Assembly (NCBI GenBank): GCA_026002855.1
Contig: BPGD01000001.1
Location: forward strand, 2,364,001 to 2,428,000
Length of the DNA stretch: 64,000 nucleotides
Direction: 5' to 3'
DNA from: Bryobacteraceae bacterium
Lineage (GTDB): Bacteria; Acidobacteriota; Terriglobia; Bryobacterales; Bryobacteraceae
A program made the position numbers and the translations under genes. Shown piece by piece: positions 25,142-27,015 of the stretch (the stretch's first letter is position 1; the number at the start of each line of letters is the position of its first letter). A model generated the notes under the pieces. That model was not told the DNA's origin. It saw only the letters and a program-made list of their open reading frames with translations, and did not search any database.

Positions 25142-26563
25142 TCAGCGGACCAGCGGGTCCTCTACCCACGGCGGCGTGGCCTCGATCAGCCGTCCCAGCT
25201 CCGGCTCCACGCGCTCCATCTCCCGCTTCATCTCCCACGCCGCGCGCCGGTAGCTGAAGTGGCCCTTGACGCCGCTGCGCAGGCGGATGATGTATTCGGC
25301 CTCGGCGAAGTCCATCTGGAACAGGAAACGCCCGCGCGTGGCGAATGGCAGCAGGTAGTGCGAGGCCCGCTCCGGCAGGCGCGCGGCGGCCTGCCGCGCC
25401 GCTTCGAGCGCGCCGCGGTATTCCTCTTCCAGCCGGGCTTCACGGATGGCGTCTGGCGTGTCAAAGCCGTGCCCCCACGTCCACTCCTGCCGCGTCTGGT
25501 GGCAGCGGCGGTGCCGGTGCAGGTCGCGGTAGGCGCCGATGTCGATGCGCAGGTCGAAGGCGTAAGGCGCGCTGCGGAAGGCGCGCAGCAGTTCATCGCG
25601 GCGTCCGCGCGGGCCGAGGGCGGCTTCCAGCACTTCCATCTGACGCGCGCGGCTCCAGGAGCGCACCGTCTCATACAGCGGCTCGAAAGGCCACGCCGTG
25701 ACCGAATACAGCAGCGTGGCAGCGATCCCTGCCAGCGGCTCTTCGACCCGGGTGAGCCGCACCGGGCCCGGCTCGGCGCCGCTCCACGGGCCAAGGTTCT
25801 GCTGCGCCCACTCGGACACGGCGCGCCATGCGGCAGCGGGGTATGGGTCCGCATCCACATACTTTGCGAGCGTCGGCGCCAGCGGCTCGTGCGCCTCGCC
25901 TTCAAACCAGACGACGTCCGGCGGGCGGGCGCACGCAGCGGCCGCTTCATCGCCGATCTCGCGCAGCTCGGCATAAGCCGACGCACGCCAGCGGCGGATC
26001 TGCCGTTCCAGCGTCCGGATGCTGGTCACCTGCCCGACCCCCGTCGGCACGCCAAGGAACAGCAGATAGCGCGCCACATCAAAGGCGCGCGCCGCGATGT
26101 TGCGTTCGTAAGCCTCCGGACGCATCGACTCCGGCCGCCGCAGCTTCTCTCTCAGGTGCTCTACCATCCGCGCATGCACGCGCCGGTAGGCATCGAGCAG
26201 CGCCCGCGCCGCCGCCACGTAAGTCTCTGCGGCCTCGCCGGCGGCCTCCGGCGGCGTCACGAAGCCGCCGCGCGCGAAGTCCTGGTAGCGCGACGAGCGC
26301 GCCTGGCCGTCCCAGAGAGGCTCGTCTTCGATCTCGATGGCGGCCAGTTCGCTGATGCCTTCAAAGCTCAGCGCCAGGTGGCCCAGGTCGGCGATGGAGG
26401 CGTGGCCGTACTGGAAATAGAAGCTTTCCAGAAATTTCGAAGAATCGTGCGCGCGGACCCACTCCACGGACTCGCGGATCGAGTCCGGCGAGCGGCTGTA
26501 ACGCGCCAGCGCGTAGGCGAGCTTTTCGGGCGGCATCGGCCCGGCGGAGATGACACGAGGCAC
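25142..26563 (-). CDS. Tandem-domain FAD-dependent thymidylate synthase (ThyX-like)
   Basis: ThyX makes dTMP from dUMP with methylene-tetrahydrofolate and FADH2. The 473-residue protein is about twice the usual length. The first half has FQYGHASIADLGHLALSFEGIS and RSSRYQDF (about 91), which matches the S-x-R-Y end of the ThyX motif without the preceding RHR. The second half has YRDLHRHRRCHQTRQEW (RHR about 349) without the usual following Ser. The two halves may therefore supply complementary parts of one active site. GTG start at 26563 with TATCAT 7 bases upstream. It is divergent from dut, which supplies dUMP. Confidence 0.82.
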   Translation of the reverse strand: MPRVISAGPMPPEKLAYALARYSRSPDSIRESVEWVRAHDSSKFLESFYFQYGHASIADLGHLALSFEGISELAAIEIEDEPLWDGQARSSRYQDFARGGFVTPPEAAGEAAETYVAAARALLDAYRRVHARMVEHLREKLRRPESMRPEAYERNIAARAFDVARYLLFLGVPTGVGQVTSIRTLERQIRRWRASAYAELREIGDEAAAACARPPDVVWFEGEAHEPLAPTLAKYVDADPYPAAAWRAVSEWAQQNLGPWSGAEPGPVRLTRVEEPLAGIAATLLYSVTAWPFEPLYETVRSWSRARQMEVLEAALGPRGRRDELLRAFRSAPYAFDLRIDIGAYRDLHRHRRCHQTRQEWTWGHGFDTPDAIREARLEEEYRGALEAARQAAARLPERASHYLLPFATRGRFLFQMDFAEAEYIIRLRSGVKGHFSYRRAAWEMKREMERVEPELGRLIEATPPWVEDPLVR

Positions 26564-26569
26564 GGCTGC

Positions 26570-26576
26570 TATGATA
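26570..26576. promoter_or_regulatory. Shared symmetric -10 element of two divergent leaderless genes
   Basis: The heptamer TATGATA reads TATGAT on the plus strand, 8 bases before the dut GTG, and TATCAT on the minus strand, 7 bases before the thyX-like GTG. The two start codons are only 20 bases apart. No ribosome site fits in either direction, so both mRNAs are predicted to be leaderless and the two polymerases to compete for one element. Confidence 0.65.
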
Positions 26577-26583
26577 GCGGGCA

Positions 26584-27015
26584 GTGCGCATCCGAGTGAA
26601 CCTTCTGCACCCTGACGCCATCCTTCCCCGCTACGCGCACGGCCCGGAAGAAGACGCCGGGATGGATCTCCATGCGGTGGAGGACGTGCTGCTGGAGCCG
26701 GGCGTGCCCGCGCTGGTGCCGACCGGACTCGCCATCGAACTGCCGCCGGGCCTGGAGGCGCAGATCCGGCCGCGAAGCGGCCTGGCGCTGCGCCATGCCA
26801 TTACGCTGCCCAACGCGCCGGCGACCATCGACCCCGGCTACCGCGGCGAGATCCGCGTCATCCTGCTCAATCTCGGGCGCGCCCCGTACTGGGTGCGCAA
26901 GGGCGACCGCATCGCCCAGATGGTCATCGCACGTTACGAGGCGATCGAGTGGGAAGAAGCCGAGCTGAGCCCGTCGAGTCGCGGCGCGGGCGGCTTCGGC
27001 AGCTCAGGCCGCTGA
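26584..27015 (+). CDS. dut: dUTP diphosphatase (dUTPase)
   Basis: Hydrolyses dUTP to dUMP and diphosphate, keeping uracil out of DNA and feeding dTMP synthesis. The 143-residue trimeric-type dUTPase has all five motifs: [42 protein letters not shown] and the C-terminal [11 protein letters not shown]. The GTG start directly begins the MRIRVNLL strand. It is divergent from the ThyX-like synthase, so two consecutive steps (dUTP to dUMP to dTMP) share a promoter region. Confidence 0.96.

Follow-up and report, generated by a model that had tools for sequence, protein, structure and literature searches.

A symmetric -10 element as a probable bidirectional promoter of divergent thyX-like and dut genes in the Bryobacteraceae

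The 20 nt that separate a thyX-like gene from a divergent dut gene in a Bryobacteraceae bacterium probably constitute one bidirectional promoter, read by the housekeeping sigma factor, with a mirror-symmetric extended -10 element and no conserved -35 element. To judge from the sequence of the junction and its relatives, the symmetric core most likely drives transcription of the two genes away from each other, and the symmetric -10 appears to be kept in the family. Both genes lie within the window, i.e. the whole stretch of 64000 nucleotides that was analysed (contig BPGD01000001.1, positions 2364001–2428000), and all coordinates below are positions in it.

The two genes and their products

The thyX-like gene (25142–26563, minus strand) encodes 473 amino acids from a GTG start and contains two Thy1 stretches, scoring above the cut-off of Pfam PF02511, and dut (26584–27015, plus strand) encodes a dUTP diphosphatase of 143 amino acids, again from a GTG start, with scores above the cut-offs of both NCBIfam NF001862 and TIGR00576. 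Position 26563 is the first ATG, GTG or TTG in the thyX frame, which itself stays open further upstream (552 codons), and residues R3 and V4 of the product are nearly invariant among 27 family proteins (most of the aligned rows begin past residues 1–2). In the dut frame, a TAG stop codon (26575–26577) is found just upstream of the GTG at 26584.

The genome, a single contig of 4.44 Mb, gave no ThyA match, and in it the thyX-like gene was the single Thy1-family ORF found and dut the sole PF00692 match found. Against the equivalog model TIGR02170 the protein scored 27.1 bits, below the cut-off of 87.9, and for this reason we call it ThyX-like and not canonical ThyX. Its Thy1 domain and ThyX fold are indicated by the PF02511 score together with weak Foldseek matches: the 50 matches listed were all ThyX/Thy1 chains, the best having an E-value of 5.3e-4 and being the sole one under 0.001, with rmsd values mostly over 8 and TM values (by target) of 0.45–0.57. 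The AlphaFold model of the protein has a mean pLDDT of 82.7, with values under 50 at residues 13–29 and 39–60, and a sequence search of the PDB with the protein returned nothing at 0.001. From its sequence and predicted fold, the ThyX-like protein is likely to be the thymidylate synthase of this genome, in an atypical form. dUTPase converts dUTP into dUMP and thymidylate synthase converts dUMP into dTMP, which are consecutive steps of dTMP supply. The functional link between the two products that was claimed in an earlier note on this DNA is plausible, given that the genome has no ThyA match and that one Thy1-family gene and one PF00692 dUTPase were found.

Inspection by eye of 27 sequences of this fused double Thy1 protein also revealed an invariant S-x-R-Y end in the first half (S90, R92 and Y93) and an invariant R-H-R in the second half (R350–R352; the same n=27), as if a single active-site motif, that of canonical ThyX, were split over the two half-copies.

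The junction and its conservation

The intergenic gap comprises positions 26564–26583, exactly 20 nt, and reads GGCTGCTATGATAGCGGGCA. Within it, the heptamer TATGATA (26570–26576; TATCATA on the other strand), which we assign as a symmetric -10 on both strands from its sequence and its conservation in the family, has its axis at 26573, i.e. at position -9 of either predicted promoter. On the plus strand, TATGAT (26570–26575) is followed by 8 nt and then by the dut GTG (26584–26586), and on the minus strand TATCAT (26576–26571) is followed by 7 nt and then by the GTG of the thyX-like gene (26563–26561). Direct reading therefore confirms the claim of the earlier note that a -10 can be read in TATGATA on either strand, at distances of 7 and 8 nt from GTG codons lying 20 bases apart. 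In terms of the leaderless TANNNT signal, the motif ends 7 nt (thyX) and 8 nt (dut) before the start codon; both coding regions start within 8 nt of the -10, and the gap itself is the putative promoter region. The heptamer forms the core of a perfect 11-bp palindrome, GCTATGATAGC (26568–26578, both strands; consensus GYTATSATARC), which is conserved beyond the -10 core and in which the -14 G of one strand pairs with the -4 C of the other strand.

The thyX-like gene was found in 183 of 200 genomes of the family (Bryobacteraceae, Acidobacteriota), with protein identities down to about 60%. From 110 loci (L003–L112, including our own locus L083), 91 were left after removal of identical thyX stretches, and seven of these were excluded as not divergent within 200 nt (five with no dut in the locus, one co-oriented and one at 390 nt), so that 84 of the 91 distinct loci, our own included, have a divergent dut within 200 nt. 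TATSATA was present in 69 of these 84 junctions, TAnnnTA in 76 and the full GYTATSATARC in 63, our own included in each case, as against means of 0.47 (maximum 4), 6.4 (maximum 17) and 0 (maximum 0) respectively in 300 dinucleotide shuffles, which do not model descent, the relatives being non-independent and many of the loci metagenome assemblies. TATSATA is missing from 15 of the 84 junctions and even TAnnnTA from eight. Counted as one locus per genus, in the 62 of 76 genera (72 with a match) that have upstream sequence for the listed match, 57 genera are divergent, of which 44 have TATSATA and 51 TAnnnTA in the approximately 100 nt upstream of thyX, the heptamer being missing from 13.

The earlier note had made a shared polymerase site depend on the heptamer persisting in relatives wherever the gene pair does, and these counts of junctions and genera support it. 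We refine it in that the conserved unit is longer, namely the GYTATSATARC of 63 junctions, which we read as two facing extended -10 elements. Within our own genome GYTATSATARC occurs once, at this junction; since the reversed-letter control also occurs once, a single genome says little, and the significance derives from conservation among relatives (TATSATA in 69 of 84 against a shuffle mean of 0.47). When the 69 loci were aligned on the heptamer, conservation peaked in the 11-bp palindrome, with a C immediately outside it on one side in 54 loci and a TT signal 9–10 nt from the axis (54 and 50 of 69), the usual place of the thyX TTG start. The distance from codon 1 of dut to the position aligned with codon 1 of thyX ranges from 20 to 138 nt across the 84 junctions. 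Two of the records, titled Arcobacter sp. (L005, DYJN01000003.1) and Acidimicrobiia bacterium (L022, VFZE01000071.1), carry thyX-like genes with 86% and 63% identity to the one in the window, and their labels look wrong.

Loci in which the pair is split or absent provide natural controls. Outside the family 49 genomes gave a thyX match; in the 20 of them that were examined, no dut match was found in the roughly 1.5 kb upstream of the homologue (0/20) and no heptamer in the 200 nt upstream (0/20), where TAnnnTA was present in 3/20. Among dut genes without a divergent junction (a match in 22 of 23 genomes; five of the 22 in-family, and one, L256 in G021, co-oriented with thyX), the heptamer was found in the 100 nt upstream of none of the 22 and TAnnnTA in two. 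Of five in-family genera without a divergent dut, one (g24) has the heptamer; the locus of in-family genus g35 (L217), which gave a co-oriented dut-like match in one search only, was counted only as not divergent, and loci L245–L249 and L252 were left out of the analysis. In genus g64, where another gene faces thyX (presumably RsfS-like, to judge by eye), neither TATSATA nor TAnnnTA is present at that place. The symmetry is thus tied to the divergent arrangement (69/84 divergent junctions against 0/20 for thyX, 0/22 for dut and 1/5 in-family genera), a linkage which serves as supporting comparative evidence and lies outside the published definition of bidirectional promoters.

Two individual loci are worth describing. 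In genus g24 (L208/L251, G023) the full palindrome is kept with no adjacent dut, the dut of that assembly being on another contig without the heptamer. One of the seven excluded loci, L076, retains TATCATA (by eye), and there the upstream gene is co-oriented.

Mirrored bases, start codons and alternative readings

To examine individual bases, the thyX-side -10 was chosen as a TANNNT 5–9 nt from the in-frame start, blind to the mirrored bases; this gave 67 of the 84 loci, the other 17 having no TANNNT at such a gap and being dropped from the base counts. At the junction, position -6 was occupied by A in 64 of these 67 loci, position -4 by C in 65 and position -14 by G in 61. Among 57 other leaderless-type -10s from a sample of our own genome the corresponding values were 10, 12 and 33, and among 46 -10s of other genes in the family loci they were 9, 11 and 26, both sets of control -10s being predicted and including chance matches. 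On these sequence counts, the -10s here generally prefer G at -14, and what sets the junction apart is its A at -6 and C at -4. These two bases complement T-12 and G-14 of the element on the other strand, so that two extended -10s facing each other are the best reading of the palindrome, and the near-fixed G at -14, A at -6 and C at -4 are as expected of two such predicted elements laid over each other. No conserved -35 was found in either direction across the 69 loci, the average best match to TTGACA being 2.72 on the thyX side and 2.20 on the dut side, with 2.66 and 2.62 respectively in shifted controls.

The spacing between -10 and start codon was assessed in a genome sample of 864 kb (40 stretches plus the window), comprising 572 genes, the two of the window included, which were called by a crude codon-score script made for the analysis. 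TANNNT precedes the first start at gaps of 6, 7 and 8 nt in 14, 6 and 11 genes (31 of 572), against a mean of 3.4 per gap (range 0–9) at 42 other gaps, and at the background rate approximately 24 of the 59 candidate leaderless-type -10s in the sample would be expected by chance. Other genes in the family loci likewise display a TANNNT peak, at gaps of 6–9 nt (16, 6, 8 and 12). In the heptamer loci, the thyX start lies 6–9 nt after the -10 in 57 of 69, and the thyX mRNA is probably leaderless in most family loci; its commonest putative start is TTG (39 of 67), an unusual leaderless start codon and as such a point against this reading. The spacing of dut is loose (6–15 nt in 61 of 69), and from it we infer a dut mRNA that is leaderless or has a leader of under about 9 nt, which would be too short for a Shine–Dalgarno helix. 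The proposal of the earlier note that both genes are leaderless is accordingly better supported for thyX than for dut. In the window, the predicted geometry permits zero to two leader bases per side.

We consider it unlikely that the heptamer serves one gene only, most probably thyX, with the other reading a by-product and dut transcribed from elsewhere. The tight spacing of thyX beside the spread of dut would suit such an arrangement, as would the heptamers retained in the two split loci L208 and L076, but the mirrored bases A-6 and C-4, either of which occurs in only about one-fifth of other -10s, are needed only by the opposite direction, and the heptamer is missing from all 20 of the out-of-family thyX homologues examined. 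A weak -35-like TTCACT, 18 nt upstream in the thyX direction and the single promoter-like site found in 26300–26850 (shuffle mean 0.0), also points to thyX; it belongs to the window only, and in the 69 family loci taken together -35 matches do not exceed those of the shifted controls.

It is very unlikely that a dimeric regulator of nucleotide genes instead uses the palindrome as its operator, with the promoter or promoters elsewhere or merely overlapping. A perfect 11-bp palindrome conserved past the -10 core would be in keeping with an operator; against this, it has one site in our own genome and 0–5 per genome across 151 genomes of the class, where the reversed-letter control has 0–7, and as these counts are no higher than the control there is no sign of a regulon. 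In addition, the axis falls at -9 of both predicted promoters, with the thyX start 6–9 nt on in the same 57 of 69 loci, and the outer G is a general -10 preference here (33/57 and 26/46). We rejected the operator as the main reading on the grounds that the palindrome is single-copy in our own genome and elsewhere no commoner than its reversed control. Chance symmetry, retained because close relatives have not diverged, is extremely unlikely, for although the gap is short (20 nt) and both TATGAT and TATCAT occur among the ordinary -10 types of our own genome (3/57 and 2/57), thyX identity goes down to about 60%, the rest of the gap shows little conservation of this degree, and 69 of 84 junctions (shuffle mean 0.47) and 44 of 57 genera contradict it.

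Relation to known promoters and proposed mechanism

The bidirectional promoter that we favour has published counterparts in which one -10 is common to both directions, -7T of each being paired with -11A of the other, and which have divergent starts 7–25 bp apart on opposite strands (most commonly 18 bp) and are used by opposing polymerases in a mutually exclusive manner (PMC12825309, PMC10268837). Our junction fits this geometry as a match in anatomy with predicted starts. Like the promoters of Warman and colleagues, as described there (PMC12825309, PMC10268837), it has a -10 readable on both strands with -7T and -11A reciprocal (TATGATA/TATCATA; TAnnnTA in 76/84 junctions), predicted starts about 18 bp apart, and divergent, functionally linked genes that would be served by one polymerase at a time. 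It is unlike them in that the gap is itself the putative promoter, -14G and -4C are mirrored, there is no conserved -35 and many genera retain the element; PMC12825309 nowhere uses the word ‘leaderless’.

In maps of transcription starts in M. tuberculosis, TANNNT is seen, in many cases extended by SRN or CGN, but no -35 (PMC3898074), and leaderless genes were reported in three of three Acidobacteria genomes at a mean of 13.3% (PMC3160421). With the leaderless TANNNT promoters of high-GC bacteria described there (PMC3160421, PMC3898074) our junction shares a -10 directly upstream of the start codon; those promoters are described there as one-way, whereas one -10 here appears to serve both strands. 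It also resembles the M. tuberculosis pair of PrpD (Rv1130) and its divergent regulator (Rv1129c), for both genes of which starts giving leaderless mRNAs are mapped (PMC3898074) and for which such starts are predicted in our case. No account of this junction was found among the papers listed on leaderless, bidirectional and divergent promoters that we covered, mostly non-subscription and at abstract level.

A general excess of two-sided shared -10s was not found in the 864-kb sample of our own genome, in which 43 divergent pairs lie close together. A TA...TA with an in-frame start to either side occurred three times, against two for AT...AT and none for ten other symmetric controls, which mostly contain G or C and are thus unmatched in composition. 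Two more divergent pairs in our own genome (L152:16853 and L146:6748) have a TAnnnTA core with close in-frame starts on both sides, and one of these has the same mirrored flanks (GCTATCCTAGC). Further copies of GYTATSATARC lie between closely spaced divergent starts in L183 (G124) and L186 (G056), according to crude gene calls; of 20 other family palindromes taken from among the matches listed, some lie between divergent starts, as in these two loci, and others inside or beside single genes (crude gene caller).

In the mechanism that we propose, the polymerase, presumably with the housekeeping sigma factor, would bind at a single site whichever way it faces: T-12, A-11, T-7 and G-14, as read in one direction, pair with A-6, T-7, A-11 and C-4, respectively, as read in the other. 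From the -10 geometry, transcription would start at or beside both GTG codons, at positions about 18–21 bp apart, for thyX at the G of its GTG or the preceding base (26563–26564, minus strand) and for dut at C26582, A26583 or G26584 (26582–26584, plus strand), and the resulting mRNAs of thyX and dut would have no leader or hardly any. With one polymerase at a time on the site, thyX and dut may be coupled through it. It is a more speculative possibility, which we rate at somewhat above one chance in three, that purifying selection acts in both directions at the same time, family-wide, on the 11-bp double extended -10, which would make up nearly all of the intergenic region and give two leaderless mRNAs, and that the exclusive orientation of the polymerase would fix the ratio of dUTPase to the sole thymidylate synthase.

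A question in the field is whether selection maintains symmetric -10s or whether most of them are noise that is tolerated. The present locus offers a natural comparison, the symmetry being found in most junctions where the pair faces each other and nearly always absent when either gene stands alone. Beyond the published cases it would add an element that is deeply conserved, a double arrangement that is nearly leaderless, and a symmetry that is almost never seen once the two genes are separated. If both transcripts are real, the family would possess a compact and deeply conserved bidirectional promoter that gives two near-leaderless messages and couples consecutive steps of dTMP supply.
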